Below, one piece after another: positions 19,427-46,934 of a stretch of 47,672 nt of DNA (its first letter is position 1; the number at the start of each line of letters is the position of its first letter). The stretch lies in contig NZ_JANTPT010000005.1 in assembly GCF_024753565.1 (NCBI RefSeq), forward strand, positions 1 through 47,672, in the 5' to 3' direction. The translations under genes were made by a program, and so were the position numbers. Under the pieces are notes generated by a model. The model ran no database searches. It saw nothing but the letters and a program-made list of their open reading frames with translations, and had not been told where the DNA came from. Source of the DNA: Mechercharimyces sp. CAU 1602. GTDB lineage: Bacteria; Bacillota; Bacilli; Thermoactinomycetales; JANTPT01.

Positions 19427-19451
19427 ACTAAAAAATATGGTAACTCTCGAA
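19427..19451 (+). promoter_or_regulatory. Shared surface-protein promoter element, copy 1
   Basis: ACTAAA (19427-19432), 15 bases, CGAA (19448-19451) followed by ATACTATATG, 56 bases before the GTG start of the next gene. A further TGAACT lies at 19397. The same arrangement precedes all five surface-protein genes. It resembles no sigma-A promoter; an alternative sigma factor with a CGAA-type -10 is the likeliest reader. Confidence 0.65.
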
Positions 19452-19507
19452 ATACTATATGTAAGGTTAAGGGATACATATAGATATATTTAGAGGGGGA
19501 AACAGTA

Positions 19508-21193
19508 GTGTTTAAACGTAGTATTGCAATCATGATGGCAGTCATGATGCTATTTACTCTCGCCATACCGTCGGTATTTGCTACCACGGAAGAGGCGAAA
19601 TTGAAGGTTGCAGTAAACAACGATGGAACGATCACCGGAACTTTTGATAAGACAGTAAAAGAAGCAGAGGGTGTCTGGATAGTACGTGTAACGAGTGACG
19701 AAAAAGATTTGCGTATGCAAGAAGTGTCTCAAATCAAAGATATAAAAGGCATGTTGGATATGATGTCGGCTAGCGAAAATGTAGAAATTAGTGGAGATGT
19801 CGATAACACAACCACAGGTACTAGTTATACGTCTACTCAAAAGTTCGCTGAGCTTAATAAAGAAGGGAAACATTATATCCATATCAGCTTTGCGGGTCAA
19901 ATTAATGGAGAAGAAACCGTTCGTCATTCTGAAATTCTTCCGTATGAAATGAAGCTTAACGAAAAAAAGAATGATGACGAAAAAAAGAAAGATGATGGGA
20001 AAAAGATCGACGCAGAAACCTTAATCCAAGCAAAAGTAAATGAAGAAGGTACAGTTACTGCCTCGTTTGTCGACTCTGTGCAAACAGCAAACGGTCGTTG
20101 GGCTGTCCGTGTAGCTCCTGACCTTGAAACACTCTGGTTAGAAGAAACCTATCAAGAGAATAATTTACTGCTGGATAACCTGCCAAGCGGAATGGCAACA
20201 GAGTTTTCTGCTACAGGACTGACTGAACTTTCCTATACTACTATTAAGACGTTTAACGAGTTTAATATAGTAGGTAAATACTATGTTCAGGTCACTTTCG
20301 GAGGAACTGTTAATGGTGAAACCGGAGTGATTCATTCTGAGCCAATGATGTATGAAGTAAAACAGAAGGAAAACGAGGAGAAAAGGGATCATAACTTCAG
20401 CATTTCAGCGGACCACGAATGGGATGAGGGTGTGTTTTACCTTTATGCCAACGTAATGGATCTCAATGCTGATCAAGTTGAAGAAGGTGAGTTTACCTTT
20501 GAAATAGAAGGCCTAGAGACAAAAAAAGTGAAGCTGGATGGAATGAGTGGTTCAGTTGAGTATGCCCTTAATAATGAGTTGATGGAGGGTACAAAGTATA
20601 ATGCTCATATCACCTTTAAGGGTGTAGTCGATGGTAAAGAAGTGGAAGAGGAGACCTCATATGCATTTGGTGTTCAGGGTTTAAAAATCTCCTATGAGAA
20701 AAAAGATGGAAAGCATGTTTTTGCAGGTGAATTGTTAGAGGCGATCGGTGCTGAGGGTGACTGGTACATGGTGATCGCGGATGCAGAGACGAAAGAGGTA
20801 GTTGAGCAATATGAGCTATTAGATGCAGAGGGAATCAAGCAGGAAAATATTGTGGAAGAGTTGTCTCATGGGAAGTATGTAGCAGGTATGTACTTTGAAG
20901 GTCAAACCGAAGATGAATATGAAAACCTATGGGACGTTACCCATTACAGTGAAGTTGAATTCGAAGTATCGAAAAAAGGGGTAGAAATTATCCCTGAGAA
21001 AGAAGAGAAGTCAACGATTGTAACGGATTTAAAAGAAAAAGAAGAAATTAAAGAGCAGTTGAAAGGCGGTAAGTTGCCGAGCACTGCTACGGAAGAACCA
21101 AAAGGGATGTTGTATGGATTAATCGCAGCTGCATTAGGATTGTTTGTTCTTGGATTTGTATTTCGTAAGAAAATTGTAGGGATGTTCCGTTAA
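19508..21193 (+). CDS. Sortase-anchored surface protein A, Ig-like modules, LPSTA signal
   Basis: 561 residues. A signal peptide (1-25) ends SVFA. Four diverged beta-rich modules follow, each closing on a G-x-Y-x-V/I-x-F-x-G-x-V-x-G pattern: GKHYIHISFAGQINGE, GKYYVQVTFGGTVNGE, GTKYNAHITFKGVVDGK and GKYVAGMYFEGQ. A Lys/Asp linker sits near residue 155-170. The C-terminus is a complete cell-wall sorting signal: LPSTA at 523-527, TEEP, a hydrophobic helix and RKK. The GTG start 19508 follows AGAGGGGGA. I do not recognise a named family or ligand. An adhesive or cell-surface structural role is inferred from architecture. It is closest to protein B in signal peptide, leader and tail. Confidence 0.9.
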   Translation: MFKRSIAIMMAVMMLFTLAIPSVFATTEEAKLKVAVNNDGTITGTFDKTVKEAEGVWIVRVTSDEKDLRMQEVSQIKDIKGMLDMMSASENVEISGDVDNTTTGTSYTSTQKFAELNKEGKHYIHISFAGQINGEETVRHSEILPYEMKLNEKKNDDEKKKDDGKKIDAETLIQAKVNEEGTVTASFVDSVQTANGRWAVRVAPDLETLWLEETYQENNLLLDNLPSGMATEFSATGLTELSYTTIKTFNEFNIVGKYYVQVTFGGTVNGETGVIHSEPMMYEVKQKENEEKRDHNFSISADHEWDEGVFYLYANVMDLNADQVEEGEFTFEIEGLETKKVKLDGMSGSVEYALNNELMEGTKYNAHITFKGVVDGKEVEEETSYAFGVQGLKISYEKKDGKHVFAGELLEAIGAEGDWYMVIADAETKEVVEQYELLDAEGIKQENIVEELSHGKYVAGMYFEGQTEDEYENLWDVTHYSEVEFEVSKKGVEIIPEKEEKSTIVTDLKEKEEIKEQLKGGKLPSTATEEPKGMLYGLIAAALGLFVLGFVFRKKIVGMFR

Positions 21194-21215
21194 GATAGCA
21201 GTTAAATATACATGT

Positions 21216-21245
21216 AAGACTGGCTTTTTAGCCGGTCTTTTTTTG
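21216..21245 (+). terminator. Terminator after surface protein A
   Basis: AAGACTGGC and GCCGGTCTT form a stem with one G-T pair over TTTTTA, followed by seven T residues. Confidence 0.9.
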
Positions 21246-21332
21246 AGTGCGCTTGGCATGGGCGCGATCTATAGTGTGAAAGTCATGAAGCCATTCCGGT
21301 CTACTTGATTGGAGAGTCAGTCTATCATAAAT

Positions 21333-21404
21333 GTGACTAAAATGTGAACATCATTTAAGATTGATAGAAAAGTGAACTAAAATTAATAGAAAAGTGAACT
21401 AAAA
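21333..21404 (+). repeat. Iterated GTGAACTAAAA motif upstream of surface protein B
   Basis: GTGACTAAAA occurs at 21333, GTGAACATC at 21344 and GTGAACTAAAA at 21372 and 21394. The last two are part of a 22-bp-period tandem repeat of ATAGAAAAGTGAACTAAAA. The final copy supplies the ACTAAA of the promoter element. The phasing of about two helical turns suggests binding sites for a regulator. Confidence 0.7.
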
Positions 21405-21422
21405 ATCTTAGTATCTCTCGAA
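21398..21422 (+). promoter_or_regulatory. Shared surface-protein promoter element, copy 2
   Basis: ACTAAA (21398-21403), 15 bases, CGAA (21419-21422), 61 bases before the GTG start. The surrounding CTCTCGAAATACTA and TATGTAAGG are nearly identical to copy 1. Confidence 0.68.
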
Positions 21423-21483
21423 ATACTATTATGTAAGGCTAAGGGATTAATATACTATATAGGTTTACTAGGGGGAAACAGTA

Positions 21484-22968
21484 GTGTTTAAACGTATAGT
21501 TGCATCTATGATGGCAATCATGATGCTATTTGCACTTGCCATCCCGTCTGCGTATGCGACTGCGGGAGAGGCAAAAATTGAAGTGACGGTTACAGAGGAT
21601 AAAGTAGTAGCTCAATTGGCTACCGTAACGGGAGCTAGTGGGGTATGGTCACTCTCCGTAGCTGACAAAGAAGATGTTGAAGGATCTGTTCTTCAAACTT
21701 CTACAGAGGTTGGCGCGACAGAATACACTTTTGAAAATGTCGAAGAGTTAAAAGCAGCAGGTACGCACTATGTAACGGTTACATTTGCGGGAACTGTAGA
21801 CGGCTTAGCAACAACACTTAACTCGGCTGTGACGGAAGTAAAGGGAGAAGTTAGTGCAGGAGAAGGTTCATCTGATGAGGAGAACCAAGATCCAACTGAA
21901 AACACTAACACCACTAACACGGATGAAACCACAACTGAGAACACTGATGGGGTAGTAGAAGAAGAGACCACCGCTACAGAAGAGGTAAAAGAAGAAGCAA
22001 AGGAAAAGAAGCTTCATATCTCCGCTAGTAGTGAAGAAATAATTGCTACTAAAGAGTGGGAAGATGAAGAGACCGGTGAAGTATTCGAGTATACGGATGC
22101 TGTCGCGCGGGTAAATGCACAGCTAGACGGAATTGGTGAAAACAAAAAAGGTAAGACGAAGAAAGTAAAAGGAACATGGACATTTGAAATTGATGGAAAG
22201 CCAGTGCAAACTGTAAAATCGACCAAAGATGGGAAAGGATTTGCGGATTACACTCTTTGGTATGAGGAAGATGACTTCTTTTTGCAAAGTGGACAAACCG
22301 TCAATGTTAAGATCTCGTTTGATGGTAAAGTAGGTGGCAAGAAAAAGTCGGAGTCGATCGACTATGAACTCGTATTACGTGATGTGATGGCTAGTTACGA
22401 TTACGCAAACGGAAAAAACATTGTAACGGGTGAATTGCTAGAGTCCAAATCAGCAGCAGGCGATTGGCTATTTGAACTTATCAGAGTAGATGTAGCCGAA
22501 GGATTTGATGAGTTAATTGAAAATGGTGCTTCTGAAGAAGAGATTGATGAGTACTATGAAAAGTACTTTACTGAAGATGCCTATAAGCTTGTTACTTATG
22601 AGGGTGTAGAAGGCTTGACGAAGTCCCATGAGTTTGGAAATTTAGAAGAAGGAAGTTATATTTCTTATGTTAGATTTGACGGCACGATTGATGGCAAAAA
22701 AGCATCATATATAAATGTTGTTGAATTTGATATTGAAGGAAAAAAAGGAACAGAAGTTCCAAAGGGTGAAGATGAAGAAGTAGTAAAAATTGATCCGAAA
22801 CAAGATGGAGATACGATTGTAGAACAAGTAGCAAAAGGCGGTAAATTACCAAGCACTGCTACAGAAGAACCGAAGGGGATGTTGTACGGTTTGATTGCAG
22901 CTGCTCTTGGTTTGATGGTTCTTGGCTTTGTGTTCCGCAAGAAGCTCGTTTCTATGTTTCGTTCATAG
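21484..22968 (+). CDS. Sortase-anchored surface protein B, Ig-like modules, LPSTA signal
   Basis: 494 residues. Signal peptide 1-25 (ends SAYA). The first module closes with GTHYVTVTFAGTVDG. A Thr/Glu/Asn-rich linker covers about residues 120-175. Two further modules close with GQTVNVKISFDGKVGGKK and GSYISYVRFDGTIDGKK. The sorting signal LPSTA is at 455-459, followed by TEEPKGMLYG, a hydrophobic helix and a basic tail. It lacks one module compared with protein A but shares its GTG start, the leader GGGGGAAACAGTAGTG and most of the signal peptide, so A and B arose by a recent duplication followed by divergence. No cysteines are evident. Function beyond surface display is unknown. Confidence 0.9.
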   Translation: MFKRIVASMMAIMMLFALAIPSAYATAGEAKIEVTVTEDKVVAQLATVTGASGVWSLSVADKEDVEGSVLQTSTEVGATEYTFENVEELKAAGTHYVTVTFAGTVDGLATTLNSAVTEVKGEVSAGEGSSDEENQDPTENTNTTNTDETTTENTDGVVEEETTATEEVKEEAKEKKLHISASSEEIIATKEWEDEETGEVFEYTDAVARVNAQLDGIGENKKGKTKKVKGTWTFEIDGKPVQTVKSTKDGKGFADYTLWYEEDDFFLQSGQTVNVKISFDGKVGGKKKSESIDYELVLRDVMASYDYANGKNIVTGELLESKSAAGDWLFELIRVDVAEGFDELIENGASEEEIDEYYEKYFTEDAYKLVTYEGVEGLTKSHEFGNLEEGSYISYVRFDGTIDGKKASYINVVEFDIEGKKGTEVPKGEDEEVVKIDPKQDGDTIVEQVAKGGKLPSTATEEPKGMLYGLIAAALGLMVLGFVFRKKLVSMFRS

Positions 22969-22997
22969 AGCTAAATAGAAGAGCAAAGAAGTAAAGA

Positions 22998-23046
22998 AAG
23001 AACCGGCCCAGAGGCGTGTGATTTCGCTGTGGCCGGTCTTTTTTTT
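22998..23046 (+). terminator. Terminator after surface protein B
   Basis: AAGAACCGGCC and GGCCGGTCTT form the stem, with a GC-rich loop, ending in eight T residues. Confidence 0.9.
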
Positions 23047-23070
23047 CCAAAAATCGGGGCTGAAAATTAG

Positions 23071-23106
23071 AGTAAAAGTGTACTAAAAATTTGCTTCCCC
23101 TTCGAA
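23071..23106 (+). promoter_or_regulatory. Shared surface-protein promoter element, copy 3
   Basis: AGTAAA (23071) is followed one helical turn later by ACTAAA (23082-23087), then 15 bases and CGAA (23103-23106) with AATATAATATAGG after it; 55 bases to the ATG. Confidence 0.65.
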
Positions 23107-23161
23107 AATATAATATAGGATAATATATTCACTATAAATGGTATGGTTTTAGGAGGCACAT

Positions 23162-24466
23162 ATGTTGAAACGAAACGTCGTCTTATCTACTGCTTTAGCG
23201 CTAGGATTGATGGTAAGTGCATCACCTGCTCTGGCTAATGAAGCAGATGATAAAGGAGTAACAGAGATTACAGAAGAAAAAAGTGTGGAAGTAGTTGTAG
23301 GAGAAGTAGCAACGGATGCTACTGAAGACGCAGGGGCAGTTGAAGAAGAGCTTAGCGTTTCAGAGCCAACCGAAGAGGCAACAGGTGAGAATGCGACGCA
23401 GACTGATAAAGAGCTTGAAAATAACGATGAAACCGTTCATAGTGAAGATAGTGGGACTACAGTAGAAGAGAATTCAGCAGCAAGCGTGACGGAGCAAGAA
23501 GAGGGTGCTGTAGTTGAACATGAAAAGAAAGCTGATGAGAAAGAAAAGAGTGTTGAAGCCCCAGCAGCCAAGTGGACGATTGCTAGCATGCACTCTTTTG
23601 AGACGATAGACGAAAAGACATATCTTCGCCTATCTGTAGCTATACAAGGTAAGGAACAAGCAAAAGTAGCAGGTTCATTTACGGTTACGATTCCAGGACA
23701 AGGAAGTAAAGTAGTGAAGAGCAACGCAGAAGGGATGGCCTTCGTCGATTACCTGCTGAATGAAGAAAGTTCTTTACTCATGGGTGAGCAATATCATGCA
23801 CATATCACTTTTACCGGGACCATTGGTGAGCTTTCTTATGTGAATGCACCGCTTAATAGTCAACACCTCATCAGAATGCCTGGTTTGGAGTTGTTTTTTG
23901 GAGAAAAATCGACTGATACAGATGCAGAGTTCGGCGGTAAAATTATTCAAGGGGAAGAAGCAAGCGGTGACTGGACCTTTACAGTAGAAGAGGTTGAATC
24001 TGGTGAAGTGATCGCTCGTGAAACATTGTTAGGTGTGAAAGGCTTACAACAATCATATCTATTCCTTGATTTAGCCAATATGTTGACAACAGGAAAGAGC
24101 TATTGGTTTACTGTTAATTTTGAAGGTGAAGTGGATGGCGTGTTTTTGGCGATGGATAGCTCCTTTTCATTAGAATTGAATGAAGAAGAGGTTGAATTGC
24201 CAGCAGCAACAGAAGAGGAAGAGCAAGTGGAGCAAACAGAAACGTTGAAAGAAACCAAGAAGGGGATAGCGAAGGAAGAAAATCTTAGCCAGCTTACCGA
24301 CGCTAAAGAGAAAGAGAGTGTAAAAGAAGTGGCTAAGGGTGGTAAGCTACCGGAAACAGCAGCTACAGAGCCACATCAGATGCTTTTTGGTGCACTACTT
24401 GTTATGCTGGGAGCTCTCCTACTCGGGTTTGTTTATCGCAGATTGTCGACTCATCCCCTTCGCTAA
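23162..24466 (+). CDS. Sortase-anchored surface protein C, acidic stalk, LPETA signal
   Basis: 434 residues. Signal peptide 1-25 (ends PALA). Residues 26-135 are a low-complexity Glu/Thr/Val stalk. A module near 137-250 closes with GEQYHAHITFTGTIG, and one near 255-345 closes with GKSYWFTVNFEGEVDG. A second acidic stretch leads to the sorting signal LPETA at 396-400, a hydrophobic helix and RRLS. ATG 23162 follows AGGAGG at 5 bases, the best ribosome binding site in the island. It is 34 bases upstream of the sortase gene and surely co-transcribed with it. The signal peptide is less like those of A and B, so C is a more distant relative. Confidence 0.9.
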   Translation: MLKRNVVLSTALALGLMVSASPALANEADDKGVTEITEEKSVEVVVGEVATDATEDAGAVEEELSVSEPTEEATGENATQTDKELENNDETVHSEDSGTTVEENSAASVTEQEEGAVVEHEKKADEKEKSVEAPAAKWTIASMHSFETIDEKTYLRLSVAIQGKEQAKVAGSFTVTIPGQGSKVVKSNAEGMAFVDYLLNEESSLLMGEQYHAHITFTGTIGELSYVNAPLNSQHLIRMPGLELFFGEKSTDTDAEFGGKIIQGEEASGDWTFTVEEVESGEVIARETLLGVKGLQQSYLFLDLANMLTTGKSYWFTVNFEGEVDGVFLAMDSSFSLELNEEEVELPAATEEEEQVEQTETLKETKKGIAKEENLSQLTDAKEKESVKEVAKGGKLPETAATEPHQMLFGALLVMLGALLLGFVYRRLSTHPLR

Positions 24467-24500
24467 GAATCAGATCCAACTAAGATGAGGATGGGTGTGA

Positions 24501-25106
24501 ATGAGAGCCGTATTAGGTTTGATTGGTTGTGCACTTTTGATCGGTGGACTATATCTATTCTTGAGCAATGGGCTCTCCTTTTGGGAACAGTATCAAGTGG
24601 CTGAGGTAGATGTGGAAGCGGCACGTAAGGTGGATCAGAACTGGGATGATCGTAAGCTGCTCCCTGTCATAAAGGGAGAGGACCAACAGATGAATCCACT
24701 GCGGGGCGAACAGATTGGGAAACTAATCATTCCGCGTGTCGGTTATAACCTGCCGATTGTGGAAGGAACGAGTGATGCGGATCTAAAAAAAGGTGTGGGC
24801 AGATATATAGGAGAAGGAATGGTTTTCCCCGGTGAACAGGGCCATGTTTCTCTAGCTGGTCACAATAATACGGTTTTTTCCGAGTTGGGTGAACTGGAGA
24901 ATGGTGATCGCATCACGATTAAAATGAATAGTAAACAGTTTGTTTATCAAGTGCATAAAACCTATATTGTGGATGCGGACGATACCAACGTGTTAGTGCC
25001 GACAGAAGATGCAACCCTAACGCTTGTGACGTGCTATCCCTTTGGGTTATTATCCGAAGCAAAAGAGCGTTATATCATCGAAGCAAAGTTGATTGAAGCA
25101 AAGTAA
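24501..25106 (+). CDS. srtD: Sortase, class D-like, of the surface-protein island
   Basis: Membrane-anchored cysteine transpeptidase that cuts LPxTA-type signals and joins the protein to the cell wall. 201 residues with an N-terminal anchor helix (residues 3-23). The catalytic triad is visible: His121 in LAGHNNTVF, Cys178 in LVTCYPFG, Arg190 in KERYIIEA. Size, the TCYPFG context and the LPxTA substrates fit class D, which in Bacillus handles LPxTA/S signals. It follows protein C after 34 bases; a terminator follows. The other four substrates are monocistronic around it. Confidence 0.93.
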   Translation: MRAVLGLIGCALLIGGLYLFLSNGLSFWEQYQVAEVDVEAARKVDQNWDDRKLLPVIKGEDQQMNPLRGEQIGKLIIPRVGYNLPIVEGTSDADLKKGVGRYIGEGMVFPGEQGHVSLAGHNNTVFSELGELENGDRITIKMNSKQFVYQVHKTYIVDADDTNVLVPTEDATLTLVTCYPFGLLSEAKERYIIEAKLIEAK

Positions 25107-25110
25107 GTAC

Positions 25111-25150
25111 AAAGGCCTTTACATCGAAAGATGTGGGGCCTTTTTTATTT
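25111..25150 (+). terminator. Terminator after the sortase gene
   Basis: AAAGGCC-TT-TACATC pairs with GATGT-GG-GGCCTTT over a GAAA tetraloop and ends in a T-run. Confidence 0.9.
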
Positions 25151-25235
25151 TTTAATCAGAAGGAGATGGTATTCACTTATTTCAAGGCTTATATGCAAAT
25201 AAAAAAATAAAAATTAATTATAATGTAACAATTTT

Positions 25236-25270
25236 GCTAAAGTGAACTAAAAAGGGATTGTTGTTTCGAA
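25236..25270 (+). promoter_or_regulatory. Shared surface-protein promoter element, copy 4
   Basis: GCTAAA (25236) and ACTAAA (25246-25251) are repeated at 10-bp period inside GCTAAAGTGAACTAAAA. Then come 15 bases and CGAA (25267-25270), 66 bases before the ATG. Confidence 0.66.
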
Positions 25271-25336
25271 TAAGGTAATATAAAGGTTTTTTATTCCATC
25301 TATCAAGTATTTTATAAATGGAAATGAGGTTATGTG

Positions 25337-27157
25337 ATGACGAAGAAATTGGTATCTGCTTTTATGACACTGATTATGGTGTTTACTCTTATGGTACCGT
25401 TGGCAATAGCCACACCTTCCGAGGAGTTGGAAGTAAAACTGGATTTGGTGAAAGGAAAGTTGAACGCACATGTTCTCCCGAGCGGACAGACCGATGGATT
25501 CTACTCATATTCGATTTATGAGAAAGGTGGAAACAGAGCTAGTTGTGACATTGATTGTACTCCCGCTGGTGGAGAGATTGCAGGTGCGAGGTTAGATGTG
25601 GATATTAGCACTGCGATTGCAAAAATGGATATGAAGAAATCTTATGAAATTTATGTTGAGTATAAGTTTGGTGAACAAGGTCCTGCAATCAGTAAAACGA
25701 TAGATCTAGTCTTCCCAGATAAAATGAAGATCGATGCGAATTTTAATGAGAAGACCGGGAAGATCAAAGGTAAAATGATGAAACGTGATCTCACCTATGG
25801 TATGTGGAACGTGTTTGCCAAGAAGAAAGGCGAAGGGGAAAAGAAAATCTCATTGTTGCGCTCTGATAAGAAAGTTTGGAACAAAAAAGAGTTTAAAGCT
25901 GATATCAGTGATGCATTGTTTGATTTGGAAGCGGGAGAGTACACTCTCACTGTAAAGTTTACAGAGCTTTTCGCAGGTGGACTGAAGCGGGACTCTAATA
26001 AAGTGAAATTTAACTATGTGGTAGAGGAAGTACCAAACATCGATATTATGACCATTCCACTGTATGATGACCATGGAGGATTAGAAGGGTATGATGTGCG
26101 TGCTTCAATCAACGATGATCGTTTTACCGATCAAGTGAAGGGAACATGGTATTACAAATTTATTGATGAACAGAGCAGTATCGTTGTTGATGAAGATGTA
26201 TCTGATCACAATACTGGGTACCAGTGGGTGAACATTTATTATAATACACCCGGAAAGTATACCGTACAAGTCGACTTTGCAGGAACGAACGATGGAAAGC
26301 CGGTAGAGCTAACTGGTGAAAAAGAGTTAATTATTCCAAACGACTCAGATTCATCTACGGTAGGGATTGATGCTTCTCACTCCTTTGTCGATTTCATGAA
26401 TCCAGAGGGTGGAGTAGAAGATGTAATGGCAGTGATCGATGTGGAGTTATACAACTTGCCTGCAGGTGAAGTAGATGGGACATGGACTTTTGAAGTTGTA
26501 GACAAAGATAATTTCAAAACGTATAAAGGTCAGGAAAAGCAATCCGTTCAGTATTCTTTGGAACAATTTAAGGAATTGGAAATGGGCAAAGGCTACGAGA
26601 TTATCATCACATTTTCTGGGAAGGTTGGGAAGGAGCACGATATCGAAGTAAGTACTTCGTATGTGTTGCCGATACCTGGATTTGAAACTAACTATGAGTG
26701 TAAAGATGGCAAGATAACGTTAAGTGGTGCTGTTCTTAATGGGAAGTACATCGAGGGAGATTGGTACTTTAATCTTTGGAAAGATGAGAAGCACGTTGCA
26801 GGGGGTGAACTGCTAGATCATAGCGGACAATTGCAGGCATCGTATACTTTTGATCAATTAGGTGCTGCTGATTTAGCTACGATTACATTTGAAGGAATGA
26901 TTGATGAAGAAGAGATTGTTCTGTGGTCTGTACTCCCAGTGAATGAGGGATGTAAAGCGGATCCTGGAGATAGTACTACTGTTATTACCAATCCAGATGA
27001 CGGAAAAGAGATTGTGGATGATATTAAGGGAGGGAAGCTGCCAAGTACTGCAACAGAAGAACCGAAAGGAATGCTATATGGTTTGATTGTCGCAGTGTTA
27101 GGCTTGATGGTTTTGGGATTTGTCTTTCGTAGCAGAATCGTGGCCTGGTTTCGGTAA
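25337..27157 (+). CDS. Sortase-anchored surface protein D, five beta modules, LPSTA signal
   Basis: 606 residues. Signal peptide 1-25 (ends AIA). Modules close with KKSYEIYVEYKFGEQG, AGEYTLTVKFTELF, PGKYTVQVDFAGTNDGK and GKGYEIIITFSGKVGK, and a last module carries Cys455 and Cys539. A second cysteine pair (Cys70 and Cys74) lies in the first module. The sorting signal LPSTA is at 568-572. ATG 25337 with GAGGT at 6 bases is preferred to the in-frame GTG 25334. It is closely paralogous to protein E over its whole length, sharing TPSEEL and the YSYSI-EKGGN region. I know no named family. The paired cysteines suggest a disulfide, unusual for Gram-positive surface proteins. Confidence 0.9.
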   Translation: MTKKLVSAFMTLIMVFTLMVPLAIATPSEELEVKLDLVKGKLNAHVLPSGQTDGFYSYSIYEKGGNRASCDIDCTPAGGEIAGARLDVDISTAIAKMDMKKSYEIYVEYKFGEQGPAISKTIDLVFPDKMKIDANFNEKTGKIKGKMMKRDLTYGMWNVFAKKKGEGEKKISLLRSDKKVWNKKEFKADISDALFDLEAGEYTLTVKFTELFAGGLKRDSNKVKFNYVVEEVPNIDIMTIPLYDDHGGLEGYDVRASINDDRFTDQVKGTWYYKFIDEQSSIVVDEDVSDHNTGYQWVNIYYNTPGKYTVQVDFAGTNDGKPVELTGEKELIIPNDSDSSTVGIDASHSFVDFMNPEGGVEDVMAVIDVELYNLPAGEVDGTWTFEVVDKDNFKTYKGQEKQSVQYSLEQFKELEMGKGYEIIITFSGKVGKEHDIEVSTSYVLPIPGFETNYECKDGKITLSGAVLNGKYIEGDWYFNLWKDEKHVAGGELLDHSGQLQASYTFDQLGAADLATITFEGMIDEEEIVLWSVLPVNEGCKADPGDSTTVITNPDDGKEIVDDIKGGKLPSTATEEPKGMLYGLIVAVLGLMVLGFVFRSRIVAWFR

Positions 27158-27200
27158 ATAAAGAAAATAACGCAAGTGATTCAGTGTAAATAGGTAATCT

Positions 27201-27233
27201 AACCTCTTCATTTTTGGTGAAGAGGTTTTTTAT
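27201..27233 (+). terminator. Terminator after surface protein D
   Basis: AACCTCTTCA and TGAAGAGGTT form a perfect stem over TTTTTGG, followed by a T-run. Confidence 0.93.
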
Positions 27234-27274
27234 TAAGTATTGAGTAAACTTAGTGATATTTTCTATTTCTTTTC

Positions 27275-27308
27275 ACTAAAGTACACTAAATAATTTTTTG
27301 GTTACGAA
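27275..27308 (+). promoter_or_regulatory. Shared surface-protein promoter element, copy 5
   Basis: ACTAAA at 27275 and again at 27285-27290 (10-bp period), then 14 bases, one fewer than in the other copies, and CGAA (27305-27308); 61 bases to the ATG. Confidence 0.6.
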
Positions 27309-27369: not shown

Positions 27370-29196
27370 ATGTCGAGAAAATTTTTAGCTAATTTTATGG
27401 CAGTAGTCATGGTGTTTACATTACTAGCACCGATGACTTTTGCTACACCAAGTGAAGAGTTGAATGTCGAGGTAGATTTAAAGAGTGGAGAATTGAAAGC
27501 GGCATTGCTCACGGGTGGACAAGCAGATGGTCTTTACTCATACTCTATATCTGAAAAAGGTGGCAACCAAATTGCTTCAGCTGAGCATGTCTTTGAAGGC
27601 AAAACCCTCCATGAAAATATTAGTGATGTGCTCTCTGAGATGGATCTAAAGAAATCTTACGAGATTCGGGTAGAGTACCAAGCAGGTAAAGATGGGGATA
27701 TGATTAGTAAAACCATTGATTTCCAATTCCCGGACAGGGTGAAGATTGAAGGGATATTTAAAGCAGAAGAATCTATCATTACGGGTGAATTGACAAATCG
27801 CGAGTCAGCGTATGGCGGTTGGTATATTACTGCCAAGAAAAAGGGTGAGCAAGAGGAGACCTTACTACATACCTCTGACAAGATTTCCTGGGGTGATGAT
27901 AAGGGGTTTAAAGCTGAAATTCATGATGCGCTACGTGAACTTGAGGCAGGTGAATATACCTTAACCTTAATGTTTACGGAGAATGTAGCTGGATTAAAGA
28001 GAGATTCCAATAAGTTGACATTTGATTATGTGGCGGAGGAAAAGTCAATATCACAACCTAAAGTGGAGGTCGAGACGCTTCCGTTGTATGATGCTAACGA
28101 AGAATTAGAAGGCTACGATGCGCGCGCGACCATAAAGGGTAAAGATTCTACAGCTGAAGTACATGGAAAGTGGAACCTTCAATTCGAGGATGAGCATGGG
28201 GAAACATTATATCGTAAGGAGATAGATAGTAAGGATGGCATGAATTCAATATCATTGAAGGCTTACATGGAGGATGCTAATCTAGCGATCAATGTAATAG
28301 TAGACTTTAAAGGAAGGGTAGATGGAGTCCCAGTGGAGTTAAGTAAGATACAAGAGATTACGATACCCGACAACACTATGAGTGTAGATATTGAGTCCTC
28401 TCATTCTTTTGAGTATATCTCTAGCCCAGATGGAGAAGAGGAGCGCTTGTTGGCAGTAGTCGATGCCAACCTAAAAAACCTACCCGAGGGTAAGGTTGAG
28501 GGGAAATGGGAATTTAGTGTTGTAGATTATGATGTTTCAAGAGGAATGCAAGGTTCAGATCAACAGTCGGTAGAGTTTGATGAGCTTGGTATGGGTATGA
28601 CTTATAATGTTCTGATAAGTTTTAAAGGTACGGTAAATGGCGAGAAGATTAATGCGGAAACCATTCACATTTTAGCGATACCAAAATTTGAAGCTGGTTA
28701 TGACTGTAAGGATGAGAAAGTAACACTTAACGGTGAGGTATACATCGATACGACAGCCGAGTTCCTTAACGAAGATTGGTCACCTGAAATGGCTGAAGGA
28801 GATTGGTATTTTTCTCTCTGGAAAGATGATGAAAATATCGCTAGTGGAGAAAAATTAGGGGTGAGTGAGTGGGGAAGTTCGTATACTTTCGCTAGTATGG
28901 GAGAAGCAGATACAGCTGCTGTAGTGCTTGAGGGAACGGTTGATGAGCAAGAAGTTATTATGTGGTCAGTGTTCCCTGTAAATAAAGAGTGTAAAAAAAT
29001 CCCGGGTAGCGGGAAAACCGTGATCGACAACGCAGAAGATGGAAAGAAAGTTGCTGAAGATATCAAAGGGGGCACATTGCCGAAAACTGCAACAGAAGAA
29101 CCGAAAGGAATGCTATATGGTTTGATGGCAGCAGTAGCGGGTCTAGTTTTGCTTGGCTTTGCTTTCCGTAAGAAGCTGGTCTTACTTTTTCGTTGA
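27370..29196 (+). CDS. Sortase-anchored surface protein E, five beta modules, LPKTA signal
   Basis: 608 residues. Signal peptide 1-25 (ends MTFA). The module order is the same as in protein D, with closing motifs KKSYEIRVEYQAGKDG, AGEYTLTLMFTENVAG and GMTYNVLISFKGTVNGEK, and a last module with Cys446 and Cys541 in positions equivalent to Cys455 and Cys539 of D. The CxxxC pair of the first module of D is absent. The sorting signal LPKTA is at 570-574 with TEEP, a hydrophobic helix and RKK. ATG 27370 follows AAGGGG. D and E are a tandem duplicate pair that has diverged. A terminator separates it from the convergent glutamate synthase gene. Confidence 0.9.
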   Translation: MSRKFLANFMAVVMVFTLLAPMTFATPSEELNVEVDLKSGELKAALLTGGQADGLYSYSISEKGGNQIASAEHVFEGKTLHENISDVLSEMDLKKSYEIRVEYQAGKDGDMISKTIDFQFPDRVKIEGIFKAEESIITGELTNRESAYGGWYITAKKKGEQEETLLHTSDKISWGDDKGFKAEIHDALRELEAGEYTLTLMFTENVAGLKRDSNKLTFDYVAEEKSISQPKVEVETLPLYDANEELEGYDARATIKGKDSTAEVHGKWNLQFEDEHGETLYRKEIDSKDGMNSISLKAYMEDANLAINVIVDFKGRVDGVPVELSKIQEITIPDNTMSVDIESSHSFEYISSPDGEEERLLAVVDANLKNLPEGKVEGKWEFSVVDYDVSRGMQGSDQQSVEFDELGMGMTYNVLISFKGTVNGEKINAETIHILAIPKFEAGYDCKDEKVTLNGEVYIDTTAEFLNEDWSPEMAEGDWYFSLWKDDENIASGEKLGVSEWGSSYTFASMGEADTAAVVLEGTVDEQEVIMWSVFPVNKECKKIPGSGKTVIDNAEDGKKVAEDIKGGTLPKTATEEPKGMLYGLMAAVAGLVLLGFAFRKKLVLLFR

Positions 29197-29246
29197 GCTG
29201 TATGTATAAGCGATAGGAAATGCTGAAGACGGATGAAAAGAGTAAC

Positions 29247-29276
29247 CCCCTCATTCTTGAGGGGGTCTTGTTTTGT
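29247..29276. terminator. Terminator between surface protein E and glutamate synthase
   Basis: ACCCCCTCA and TGAGGGGGT form a perfect stem over TTCT, with TCTTGTTTT after it. It serves the plus-strand gene and may also stop the convergent minus-strand gene. Confidence 0.85.
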
Positions 29277-35895: not shown

Positions 35896-36147
35896 TCGTG
35901 CTCCTCCTCAAATGTGGTTCCATGTACTCTTATCCATTCTAGAGGCTCTCTTCCCTTATCTGCAAGATATAATCTCAAAGGGGGAGAAGTTTTGTGTGCA
36001 AATAGAGGAAAAACATGCTTAAAAGCCTGTGAGAAACAGCGGAAATGTGGTATTCTGACAAGGAGCTAACCTTATTTTGCACATTTTCGAGAACCCACTG
36101 TAGTGTCTTATTTTTAGAATGTGAGTTTTATTGGAGGAGAGAGTCCA

Positions 36148-38052
36148 ATGGCTTTCTTTAAAGCGGGGGACCGTTATAGAGATTATCTAGTTGAACAAAC
36201 CTACCCTTTCTTCAATGGAGAATGGGCAATTGCGCAAAAAAACAACGAAAAATGGCATTTGCATCAAATTCCTTTAGTTAAACAGGCGCCACCCAGATCG
36301 ATCCAGCAATATTTAGCTTTGCGGGATGAGATTATGCTTCCAGTAGTAGAAGCGTTTACGGAAGAGCGATCCTTGGTTTTGATTCATCCATATGAAGATT
36401 TGCAGTCGTTCCAATCGATTGCCTCTCACGAGCCTGTAAAGGAAGAACAGGTGATAGAGTGGGCAAAGCAGTTGTTAAGAATGGATGCCAAACTACGTAG
36501 TCAAGCTTTGCCTATGTATTTCTTACTAGATCCTCGCAATATAGCGTTAACAGTAACAGGAGATCTCCGCATCTGTTTCTGTGGTGTTCATCGCGTGACA
36601 GAACAGCAACAGAAAAACGATTGGGGAACTTTTTTTTACATAATGGTTACTGGCAAGCTAAATGCAGAGAAGGTTGATAAAATACCTGATTCTATTTCAG
36701 TAAGTAAATATATGGTTCGACTAATGCAAAAGTGTCTGCGTACAGAATCTGTGGATGAAGTTTTATCACAAATTGAGGCATATGAGCGGAAGAAGTATTC
36801 AAAAGGGTTCTTAAGTAAACTTTTTGGGGGCTCAGATCAGAACAAAGAGGAAGAAGAAAGCGTTGATTCTCACCAAGGCGATGAAAAAAAGTTTACGCCT
36901 GATTCAACAGCATTAAGCGAAATTCAGCAACATAAGACCGAGGTAGATGTAGAGACGGAACGACTTCAACGAGAGCGCTTAGAGCGAGAGCGTCTGGAAC
37001 GAGAACGTCTCGAACGAGAACGTCAACGCCGGGAAGCGGAAGCAGAGGCACAGCGCATAGAAGAAGAACGTCAACGCCGGGAAGCGGAAGCAGAAGCAAG
37101 GCGCCAAGAAGAAGAGCGTCAACGCCGGGAAGCGGAAGCAGAAGCACAGCGCATAGAAGAAGAGCGTCAGCGCTGGGAAGCGGAAGCAGAGGCACAGCGC
37201 CAAGAAGAAGAGCGCCAGCGCCGGGAAGCGGAAGCAGAGGCAAGGCGCCAAGAAGAAGAGCGTCAACGCCGAGAAGCGGAAGCAGAGGCACAGCGCATAG
37301 AAGAAGAACGTCAACGCCGGGAAGCGGAAGCAGAGGCACAGCGCATAGAAGAAGAACGTCAACGCCGGGAAGCGGAAGCAGAAGCAAGGCGCCAAGAAGA
37401 AGAACGTCAGCGCCGGGAAGCGGAAGCAGAAGCACAGCGCATAGAAGAAGAGCGTCAGCGCTGGGAAGCGGAAGCAGAGGCACAGCGCATAGAAGAAGAA
37501 CGTCAGCGCCGGGAAGCGGAAGCAGAGGCAAGGCGCCAAGAAGAAGAACGTCAGCGCCGGGAAGCGGAAGCAGAAGCACAGCGCATAGAAGAAGAGCGCC
37601 AGCGCCGGGAAGCGGAAGCAGAAGCACAGCGCCAAGAAGAAGAGCGCCAGCGCCGGGAAGCGGAAGCAGAGGCACAGCGCCAAGAAGAAGAGCGTCAACG
37701 CCGGGAAGCGGAAGCAGAGGCACAGCGGATAGAAGAAGAGCGTCAACGCCGGGAAGCGGAAGCAGAGGCACAGCGCATAGAAGAAGAGCGTCAACGCCGG
37801 GAAGCGGAAGCAGAAGCACAGCGCCAAGAGGAAGAGCGTCAACGCCGGGAAGCGGAAGCAGAAGCAAGGCGCCAAGAAGAAGAACGTCAGCGCCGAGAAG
37901 CGGAAACAAAGCGCTTGGAAGCAGAGCGCTTAGAGCGAGAACGTCTTGAGTTGGAGCGATATAAGGCTGAGCGCTTGAAATTGGAAAAGAAAGCGCATGA
38001 GGAGCTAGCCAATCAATTTAGAGAATATAACGATCATATGGGGATGGACTGA
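36148..38052 (+). CDS. Kinase-fold-like (pseudokinase) protein with giant charged helical repeat
   Basis: About 634 residues. Residues 1-210 look like a degenerate protein kinase: an N-lobe-like start (YRDYLVEQTYPFFNGEWAIA), then FLLDPRNIALT (126-135), where a catalytic loop would be, and ICFCG (142-146), where DFG would be. The HRD histidine and aspartate pattern, the DFG aspartate and an obvious ATP lysine are missing. Residues about 211-291 are a polar linker. Residues 292-579 are eighteen perfect-register copies of a 16-residue unit (consensus RQRREAEAEAQRIEEE), and a basic/acidic tail ends the protein. No membrane segment is seen. ATG 36148 follows GGAGGAGA. Two Spo0M-like genes follow at 60 bases. 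Function unknown. Confidence 0.85.
   Translation: MAFFKAGDRYRDYLVEQTYPFFNGEWAIAQKNNEKWHLHQIPLVKQAPPRSIQQYLALRDEIMLPVVEAFTEERSLVLIHPYEDLQSFQSIASHEPVKEEQVIEWAKQLLRMDAKLRSQALPMYFLLDPRNIALTVTGDLRICFCGVHRVTEQQQKNDWGTFFYIMVTGKLNAEKVDKIPDSISVSKYMVRLMQKCLRTESVDEVLSQIEAYERKKYSKGFLSKLFGGSDQNKEEEESVDSHQGDEKKFTPDSTALSEIQQHKTEVDVETERLQRERLERERLERERLERERQRREAEAEAQRIEEERQRREAEAEARRQEEERQRREAEAEAQRIEEERQRWEAEAEAQRQEEERQRREAEAEARRQEEERQRREAEAEAQRIEEERQRREAEAEAQRIEEERQRREAEAEARRQEEERQRREAEAEAQRIEEERQRWEAEAEAQRIEEERQRREAEAEARRQEEERQRREAEAEAQRIEEERQRREAEAEAQRQEEERQRREAEAEAQRQEEERQRREAEAEAQRIEEERQRREAEAEAQRIEEERQRREAEAEAQRQEEERQRREAEAEARRQEEERQRREAETKRLEAERLERERLELERYKAERLKLEKKAHEELANQFREYNDHMGMD
37021..37884 (+). 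repeat. Eighteen 48-bp tandem repeats inside the pseudokinase-like gene
   Basis: Each unit is 48 bp and encodes 16 residues, starting CGTCAACGCCGGGAAGCG in the first copy. Variants differ mainly at three codons (Q/R, I/Q and R/W). Units 2-6 and 8-12 have the same variant order, so a six-unit (288-bp) block was duplicated. The repeat length is likely to vary between strains. Confidence 0.95.
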
Positions 38053-45560: not shown

Positions 45561-46289
45561 TTGAAAAGAAGAACACTCACTACTTTGCTATTATTAGCGG
45601 TATTTGGGTTTATGACAGTCGCTGGATTTTCGTTAAGTGTTACGACATATGCAAATCCAGCTAATGATCCAGGGGATCCACCAACGGATCCAGAGGATCC
45701 ACCAACGGATCCAGATAACCCACCAACGGATCCAGAGGATCCACCAACCGATCCAGAGAATCCACCAACCGATCCAGGGGATCCACCAACTGATCCAGGG
45801 GATCCACCAACTGATCCAGGGGATCCACCAACGGACCCAGGGGATCCACCAACGGACCCAGGGGATCCACCAACGGATCCAGAGGATCCACCAACGGATC
45901 CAGAGGATCCACCAACGGATCCAGAGGATCCACCAACGGATCCAGAGGACCCACCAACTGATCCAGAGGATCCATTAACTGAGCCAGATACGGGTAACTC
46001 CGGCGATGGGGAAGCCAATGTAGGTAACGATAGCGGATATTCCCAAGGTGAGCAGGGTACTTCTAATGAATCGATCGTTAATACTCAAGCAGGGATAGGT
46101 TCAGATAGCATTTTACTAGCCGATAGTTCAGCTGCGAGTGATGGTGAGTTAGATAAGAATCAACCTAAAACAGAGGATGGCGGTAAATTAGCCAAGACAG
46201 GTGCTAGCCCACTTCCTTTGTTGCTCATGGGTTTTGGGATGCTTGGAATGGGCGCTACTCTGTTTCAACATTACCGCAAAGTAGTATAG
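45561..46289 (+). CDS. Cell-wall protein with DPxDPPT repeats and LAKTG sorting signal
   Basis: 242 residues. A signal peptide (about 1-31) ends TYA. Residues 36-140 are fifteen 7-residue repeats DP(G/E)DPPT, a rigid acidic/proline stalk. Residues 140-200 are a Gly/Ser/Asn-rich segment, and the C-terminus is a sorting signal with LAKTG at 210-214, a hydrophobic helix and HYRK. TTG 45561 follows GAGGAGG at about 7 bases. LAxTG signals are best known for class E sortases, yet the sortase 3 bases downstream looks like class D. The protein is nearly all stalk with no folded domain, so it may act as a spacer or wall-spanning protein. Confidence 0.88.
   Translation: MKRRTLTTLLLLAVFGFMTVAGFSLSVTTYANPANDPGDPPTDPEDPPTDPDNPPTDPEDPPTDPENPPTDPGDPPTDPGDPPTDPGDPPTDPGDPPTDPGDPPTDPEDPPTDPEDPPTDPEDPPTDPEDPPTDPEDPLTEPDTGNSGDGEANVGNDSGYSQGEQGTSNESIVNTQAGIGSDSILLADSSAASDGELDKNQPKTEDGGKLAKTGASPLPLLLMGFGMLGMGATLFQHYRKVV
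45666..45980 (+). repeat. Fifteen 21-bp tandem repeats
   Basis: The unit GATCCAGAGGATCCACCAAC plus one base repeats 15 times in exact register. Variation is mainly GGG/GAG and the base before GATCC. BamHI-type GGATCC palindromes recur throughout. Low divergence suggests recent expansion and strain variation. Confidence 0.95.
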
Positions 46290-46292
46290 AGG

Positions 46293-46934
46293 ATGCGTCA
46301 GATTGGCTTGCTGGTTAGTGTTTGGTTGATGTTGTTAGGCGGCTTAGTCGTATTTGACCAAGGACAGCAGTGGTTAAACCAACAACAAGCGATCAGTGAG
46401 TGGCGTAAAGCTGGAATCAAGGAGCCCCAACCTAAAGCAACTGTGGTTAATTTCACGCTCAAATTAGCCCGTCAACTGCAACACAAGAAGCTTATTTTTT
46501 CGCCACAGGGGATACGGTGGGAACAGAGGCCGCGGAGCGGAGAAATATTTGCGCAAATCTTTATTCCTAAGTTGGGTGTAAAAGTTCCCATTGTTGAAGG
46601 GACATCAGAGAAAGAGTTAGAGCGTGGGGTAGGGCACCATATAGCATCTGTACTGCCCGGAGAAGGAGACAATGCGGTGTTAGCAGGACATAATAATACC
46701 GCTTTTACTGGACTGGGTAAACTTGTCGAAGGGGATCAACTCATAGTGGAATCAAAAGAGGGTGTGTTTACCTATATTGTAGAGAAAACCTGGATTACAA
46801 GCATGGATGATCGCACGGTAATCGTCTCACACGAACAACCTCTTTTGACTGTTTATACATGTTATCCATTCGATGAGATAGGCTTTGCAGAAGAACGTTA
46901 TATCGTACAGTCACGATTAATTGGAATAGAATAA
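46293..46934 (+). CDS. Second sortase, class D-like
   Basis: 213 residues. The N-terminal anchor helix is at 4-22. The triad is His133 in LAGHNNTAF, Cys190 in VYTCYPFDEIG and Arg202 in EERYIVQS. It is similar to the island sortase in the core (IFIPKLGVKVPIVEGTSEKELERGVGHHI). Its gene starts 3 bases after the LAKTG protein with only a weak GAGG, suggesting translational coupling and a dedicated enzyme-substrate pair. A strong terminator follows. Confidence 0.92.
   Translation: MRQIGLLVSVWLMLLGGLVVFDQGQQWLNQQQAISEWRKAGIKEPQPKATVVNFTLKLARQLQHKKLIFSPQGIRWEQRPRSGEIFAQIFIPKLGVKVPIVEGTSEKELERGVGHHIASVLPGEGDNAVLAGHNNTAFTGLGKLVEGDQLIVESKEGVFTYIVEKTWITSMDDRTVIVSHEQPLLTVYTCYPFDEIGFAEERYIVQSRLIGIE

Follow-up and report, generated by a model that had tools for sequence, protein, structure and literature searches.

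A Putative Sigma-I Promoter Shared by LPxTA Surface-Protein Genes and the sigI-rsgI Operon of Mechercharimyces sp. CAU 1602

A Shared Element before Genes A–E and sigI

A stretch of 47,672 nucleotides (nt) of Mechercharimyces sp. CAU 1602 (contig NZ_JANTPT010000005.1, positions 1 to 47,672 of the forward strand; hereafter the window) carries an island of five genes, A–E, encoding surface proteins with LPxTA-type sorting signals, and a class D sortase gene located behind gene C. Each of the five genes is preceded by the same two-part element, ACTAAA and CGAA separated by 14 or 15 nt, and an exact copy of it lies in front of the sigI-rsgI operon elsewhere in the genome. Judged from the sequence, the element can very probably be considered a sigma-I promoter, and the five LPxTA units, one of them with the sortase, would form together with sigI a sigma-I regulon whose specificity region is not of the ACCCCC type.

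The element stands before genes A–E on the + strand (Table 1), as the original prediction had claimed. The two boxes are 15 nt apart at A–D and sigI, and 14 nt apart at E; the distances from CGAA to the start codon are 56 (A), 61 (B), 55 (C), 63 or 66 (D, for a GTG or an ATG start), and 61 bases (E). The pattern ACTAAA-N14-16-CGAA has seven matches in the window, where 0.41 would be expected; the two remaining ones (352 and 43345) are on the - strand and not 5' of genes A–E. The chance of a match in a 140-nt upstream region of the same composition is about 0.001. The conserved stretch is longer than the motif first described, approximately AAAGTGnACTAAAA. Before gene B, a tandem duplication of about 22 base pairs (bp; window positions 21363-21405) has generated two -35 regions that share one CGAA, the upstream copy having none of its own.

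The upstream regions of A and B are 82% alike over about 100 nt, and therefore these two sites are not independent. This relatedness, together with the 49% identity of the D and E proteins, would fit a similarity left over from gene duplication and devoid of function. However, the upstream regions of C, D, and E align poorly except in and around the motif, and the element recurs before sigI, which is an unrelated gene, and in further families of the same order; such an origin is exceedingly improbable.

The copy at sigI occupies C1:1961354-1961378, which leaves 28 bp to the start codon, and lies directly 5' of the ribosome-binding site AGGAAGAGGTG. The sigI product of 258 amino acids (aa) is recognized by TIGR02895 with 194 bits against a cut-off of 185, while nine further SigI models among those listed stay below their own cut-offs. 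In Pfam it matches Sigma70_r2 only, with no region 4, which in SigI factors gives way to a C-domain bearing the KHR motif. Its best relatives of solved structure are SigI6 and SigI1 (8i24 and 8i23, both open complexes), and its KHR motif at positions 170-172 aligns with that of both, at the residues mutated in PMC10575876. The rsgI gene overlaps sigI, and in the 355 aa of its product that were scanned only RsgI_N (49 bits) and RsgI_M (86 bits) were detected with Pfam, along with one apparent membrane-spanning stretch. This is the only such operon found, with only one RsgI_N locus above the cut-off in the genome. Given the motif upstream of the operon, sigI may be autoregulated.

The original prediction had envisaged an alternative sigma factor, naming SigI among the candidates. 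Both the exact copy directly 5' of sigI-rsgI and the same architecture of the sigI promoters of relatives speak for it. The option of an extracytoplasmic function (ECF) sigma factor fared worse, as none of the 22 exact matches in the genome precedes one of the ten further Sigma70_r2 loci. Under this alternative, in which an ECF or other sigma factor would use TGAAC as -35 and CGAA as -10, one may point to three short sigma factors (C1:129775, 325550, and 447324), to a relaxed match (ACTTAAA, C3:159194) about 240 nt before a sigma region at C3:159460, and to GTGAACT, which we take to resemble ECF -35 boxes. Yet no exact match precedes those sigma genes while one precedes sigI, the relaxed site on C3 scores -2.4 with the matrix described below, A and sigI read GGACT, not GAACT, and in relatives the element accompanies SigI; an ECF promoter is thus very unlikely.

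Fit to Published Sigma-I Promoters

Sigma-I promoters of Bacillales have been described as ACCCCC--AA 15(N) CGAA----T, and that of SigI6 as CNNAAA, 13-14, CGAA (PMC4711584). They share the CGAA tetrad and an A-tract, and the bases 5' of the A-tract, which set the specificity, diverge (PMC6056542). SigI contacts the A-tract through the minor groove, where K170, H171, and R172 were probed by mutagenesis, and its helix-turn-helix contacts the specificity region through the major groove (PMC10575876).

The sites of A–D and sigI agree with the published order and spacing (variable region, A-tract, 13-15 nt, CGAA or CGWA), that of E being one base shorter. In the five island sites as well as the sigI site, the -35 element ends in AAA and CGAA follows after 14 or 15 nt; a T occurs five bases after CGAA at A, B, C, E, and sigI. 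The ACCCCC specificity region of Bacillales is absent and replaced by GGAC or nAC. Since the specificity region differs among SigI factors (PMC6056542), this marks a variant and does not exclude a sigma-I promoter.

The claim that no sigma-A hexamers lie at matching places holds in part: a consensus scan gave no TTGACA-like partner, but TATAAT (C) and TACTAT (A and B) are found a few bases after CGAA. These sequences bear on another possible arrangement, an activator site (e.g., for an OmpR-type regulator binding CTAAA repeats 10 bp apart) combined with sigma-A acting on the TATAAT-like sequence behind CGAA. D and E contain GCTAAAGTGAACTAAA and CACTAAAGTACACTAAA, respectively, and the duplication before B and TATAAT at C would also suit it. 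The 10-bp repeat is missing at A, C, and sigI, though, the spacing to CGAA is fixed, and the same pair of boxes constitutes the published sigma-I layout, all of which renders this arrangement highly unlikely. A helper activator may nonetheless act on top of SigI, with a precedent in WalR of B. subtilis (PMC7478892).

SigI and Its Putative Promoter in Relatives

Of 101 genomes searched, 66 gave a SigI match, a count that includes the present genome and weak matches; the best ones with named records belong to Thermoactinomycetaceae genera. Upstream of sigI in the 29 best relatives, 24 carry [GA]GAC-nn-AAA and an equally spaced CGAA, usually followed by TA, one has AGCC, three have a CGTA variant, and one has none. 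From an alignment-based search yielding 80 SigI loci, 40 were examined: 15 from Thermoactinomycetaceae, two from unplaced near relatives, and 23 others. The Thermoactinomycetaceae records (14 [GA]GAC-nn-AAA, one AGCC, no ACCCCC) probably overlap in species with the 29 relatives and are therefore not independent of them. One of the two unplaced near relatives has neither form, the other ACCCCC. Among the 23 more distant loci, eight are of the ACCCCC type (Paenibacillus, Thermobacillus, Alicyclobacillus, and Bhargavaea), three of the GAC type (Planococcus and Planomicrobium), and 12 of neither under the filter used. In one relative (G003, L054 271-2283) SigI is part of a single 671-aa open frame with the downstream part; in this genome sigI and rsgI are separate frames.

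A scoring matrix was trained on the sigI promoters of relatives only, with none from this genome. Five of the 29 were left out, namely L070 (which has the element and is a near-repeat of L067), L074 (without the element), and the three CGTA variants, and two duplicates were also removed. This matrix assigns 23.3 to the sigI promoter of the present genome, and the sites of C, A, and E are the three best separate matches in the window, the next one scoring 12.6 at 35966 on the - strand. In 100 random windows the best match averages 11.9, with a 95th percentile of 16.5 and a maximum of 20.4; the best match in the reversed window is 9.4. Three of the five sites are thus recovered independently, B and D resting mainly on the motif common within this genome.

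The GGAC form, GGACNNAAA-N13-15-CGAAT, occurs 151 times against 48 for reversed controls in 30 genomes with SigI, and 15 times against 12 in 12 genomes without it, where G038, having only a weak SigI match of 24% identity, was counted among the latter. The statistical significance of this difference is modest (Fisher p 0.035; rank test p 0.037), and the presence of SigI and that of the promoter tend to go together in the genomes compared.

Two further observations were made. In six relatives (L182, L188, L192, L199, L202, and L210) a GGAC-type promoter precedes a short, secreted-looking peptide of 57-69 aa; these peptides form one loose family, which is a possible sigma-I target. At L115 4231-4267 a strong sigma-I-type promoter (21.6) is followed by no clear gene, only by a brief segment that terminates in a hairpin-like repeat with a T run; this may be a SigI-dependent small RNA.

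Sortase and xPxTA Genes behind the Putative Promoter in Relatives

Among 110 sortase matches listed, 46 were scored, 45 in relatives and one more in this genome. A sigma-I-type promoter precedes the sortase genes of G009 (23.2), G016 (26.1), G026 (32.6), G030 (27.8), and, marginally, G033 (13.0), as well as a decayed LPxTA gene in G013 (19.4); other genes scored at those loci reach at most 7.3. With longer flanks, an LPKTA gene adjoining the G026 sortase was also found to have the promoter (21.4), and MPxTA genes elsewhere have it in G025 (24.8) and G027 (29.6 and 30.9).

Two short proteins (L240 2347-2739 and L241 6635-7051), each encoded behind a strong sigma-I-type promoter, combine MPxTA signals with NCSDF...DLDRD stretches. 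We assume the latter to be Excalibur-like.

Occurrence of the Element in the Genome and Points against a Sigma-I Regulon

Several results weigh against the assignment of the element to SigI. The enrichment across the genome that the original prediction had led one to expect was not found: the exact pattern has 22 matches on both strands of the 2.93-Mb genome, compared with 64 for the reversed pattern, and two relaxed forms have 49 and 60 matches, compared with 108 and 92 for their reversed controls. The AT pair three bases after CGAA, which matters for SigI6, is found at C only, and the sites differ within the specificity region, sigI and A reading GAC (GGACT) and B–E AAC, TAC, or CAC instead. 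With the matrix from relatives, only C exceeds the 95th percentile of random windows, A falling just short of it, and B and D score poorly. Of the 30 SigI genomes, 21 have GGAC-form counts above the control, two equal to it, and seven below, and at least 19 of the 151 matches are the sigI promoters themselves. No such promoter was seen within 350 nt of a sortase or LPxTA gene at 40 of the 46 scored sortase loci, and sortase D is above the cut-off in 41 of 42 genomes, including ones without SigI; the wiring of SigI to the sortase is therefore not general.

It is the position of the motif, not its frequency, that counts. Nine of the 22 exact matches lie outside open frames of more than 108 codons, and these comprise the five island sites, the sigI site, and three others: L004 is inside a terminator-like hairpin, L008 has nothing behind it but a 52-codon frame at a distance of 78 nt, and L015 is at a contig edge with no start codon in the 375 nt available. 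Their matrix scores are -0.9, -2.5, and -14.0, respectively. The surroundings were examined for 31 of the 49 sites of one relaxed form and 30 of the 60 of the other; among those outside long frames, L133, L140, and L146 score at most 2.4, and L328, L334, and L348 below zero. One weak additional candidate among the relaxed sites examined, L148 395-432 (C3:70414, matrix 15.4), precedes a 156-codon frame. With this coverage, the genome may well hold additional members. As for the order as a whole, SigI control of sortase-D anchoring seems, from the promoters located, to be recurrent but not universal.

Proposed Mechanism and Relation to Known Systems

In a sigma-I regulon of this kind, the 5' part of the element (about AAGTGnACT or ATGGACT) would be the specificity region, contacted through the major groove by the SigI C-terminal domain. 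The adjacent AAA would be the A-tract, which the KHR motif contacts through the minor groove, and CGAA the -10 element. RsgI, the anti-sigma factor from the same overlapping operon, would restrain SigI until a surface signal inactivated it; the freed SigI would then transcribe its own operon and the five separate LPxTA units, and the class D sortase encoded behind gene C would attach the LPxTA proteins to the wall.

In Bacillales, sigma-I promoters (those of B. subtilis sigI, bcrC, and mreBH, and of lytE) likewise have AA, 15 nt, CGAA, and a T five bases on, and a sigI-rsgI operon is present (PMC4711584, PMC7478892). They differ in having ACCCCC where GGAC or nAC is found here, and in serving mreBH/lytE-type wall genes, whereas the targets here would be LPxTA proteins and a sortase. 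In clostridia with cellulosomes, SigI1-SigI8 also recognize an A-tract and CGAA, with specificity set 5' of the A-tract, and control a system of surface-displayed proteins (PMC6056542, PMC10575876); several sigI copies with sugar-sensing RsgI proteins occur there, in contrast to the single pair here, whose RsgI showed no Pfam domains other than RsgI_N and RsgI_M. The sortase C system of B. anthracis (LPNTA) resembles the island in its LPxTA-type substrates with an adjoining sortase, but has been described as driven by the SctRS two-component system, and basH by sigma-F, not by SigI (PMC3297441). Bacillus cellulosilyticus possesses sortase D and many LPxTA proteins, with one sortase beside a substrate; its LPXTA substrates are mostly enzymes, and SigI is unmentioned in the main text of the paper, as far as that text was available (PMC3617157).

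No link between SigI and sortases or LPxTA proteins was found in the literature searched, the coverage of which is thin for subscription journals, so that its absence is unproven. In the accessible parts of three further papers, sigI appears once in another context and sortase in a reference only (PMC8938561), sigma-I in a reference only (PMC11557425), and a class E sortase without SigI (PMC13251363).

If the assignment is true, the anchoring of proteins to the wall joins the known duties of SigI, i.e., the response to heat and wall stress and the control of cellulosomes. Sigma-I promoters with a deviating specificity region would, moreover, be at hand for a whole family, so that the rule by which the C-domain of SigI reads the -35 element could be tested by comparison, and SigI would become a candidate regulator for the function-unknown LPxTA proteins of Thermoactinomycetaceae relatives. 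A broader and rather doubtful idea is that SigI-RsgI in this order could be a surface-display switch that monitors the condition of the wall or surface and controls the whole class D sortase branch, sortase and substrates alike, in parallel to the control of clostridial cellulosomes. It would act via a GGAC-type -35 recognition peculiar to the lineage, which arose either from the ACCCCC type or alongside it.

Genes of the Island and Other Features of the Window

The features of the island are listed in Table 1. Each of the five proteins begins with a signal-peptide-like stretch and ends in an LPxTA-type signal, and the sortase, which passes the SrtD model, adjoins LPSTA, LPETA, and LPKTA substrates, as in a class D sortase system. 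Gene C and the sortase gene are presumably co-transcribed. Terminator-like hairpins are located behind A, D, E, and the sortase gene, so that every promoter probably drives a unit of its own, the sortase belonging to that of gene C.

Table 1. Predicted promoters, genes, and terminator-like hairpins of the surface-protein island (window coordinates).
Feature	Position	Strand	Remarks
Sigma-I-type promoter of gene A, putative (ATGGACTAAAAAA...CTCGAAATACTAT)	19427..19451	+	Matrix 16.4, second-best separate window match
Gene A, 561-aa secreted protein, LPSTA sorting signal	19508..21193	+	
Terminator-like hairpin after A	21216-21239		
Sigma-I-type promoter of gene B, putative	21398..21422	+	Motif; matrix only 6.0
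Gene B, 494-aa LPSTA surface protein	21484..22968	+	
Sigma-I-type promoter of gene C, putative, and probably of the sortase behind it	23082..23106	+	Matrix 18.3, best window match
Gene C, 434-aa LPETA surface protein	23162..24466	+	
Class D sortase, 34 bp 3' of gene C	24501..25106	+	Pfam Sortase 109.7 bits; NF058671 SrtD 186.5 bits, cut-off 140
Terminator-like hairpin closing the C-sortase unit	25117..25138	+	
Sigma-I-type promoter of gene D, putative	25246..25270	+	Motif; matrix only 7.8
Gene D, 607-aa LPSTA surface protein	25334..27157	+	
Terminator-like hairpin after D	27201-27227		
Sigma-I-type promoter of gene E, putative (spacing 14)	27285..27308	+	Matrix 13.1, third-best separate window match
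Gene E, 608-aa LPKTA surface protein	27370..29196	+	Gram_pos_anchor 20.6 bits, cut-off 20
Terminator-like hairpin after E	29245-29266		

With the processed acidic surface protein model TIGR04383, proteins A, C, D, and E score 18.7-27.1 bits (A 27.1), below the cut-off of 50, and B gives no match; these sub-threshold matches are confined to the C-terminal part, where the sorting signal is located. The structure model of the gene E product, of moderate confidence (predicted local distance difference test, pLDDT, 70.6; predicted template-modelling score, pTM, 0.37), consists of beta-sandwich domains arranged in a chain, an architecture that would suit a stalk or a protein active in adhesion. Foldseek returned generic chained beta-sandwich matches for it (complement, cytokine receptors), and therefore no function was read from them.

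Positions 45561-46931 of the window hold a PTDPxDP-repeat protein with an LAKTG end and, behind it, another class D sortase (NF058671, 174.2 bits); a sigma-I-type promoter was not seen upstream. An open reading frame with a long tandem EAEAQRxEEERQRR repeat occupies positions 36121-38052.

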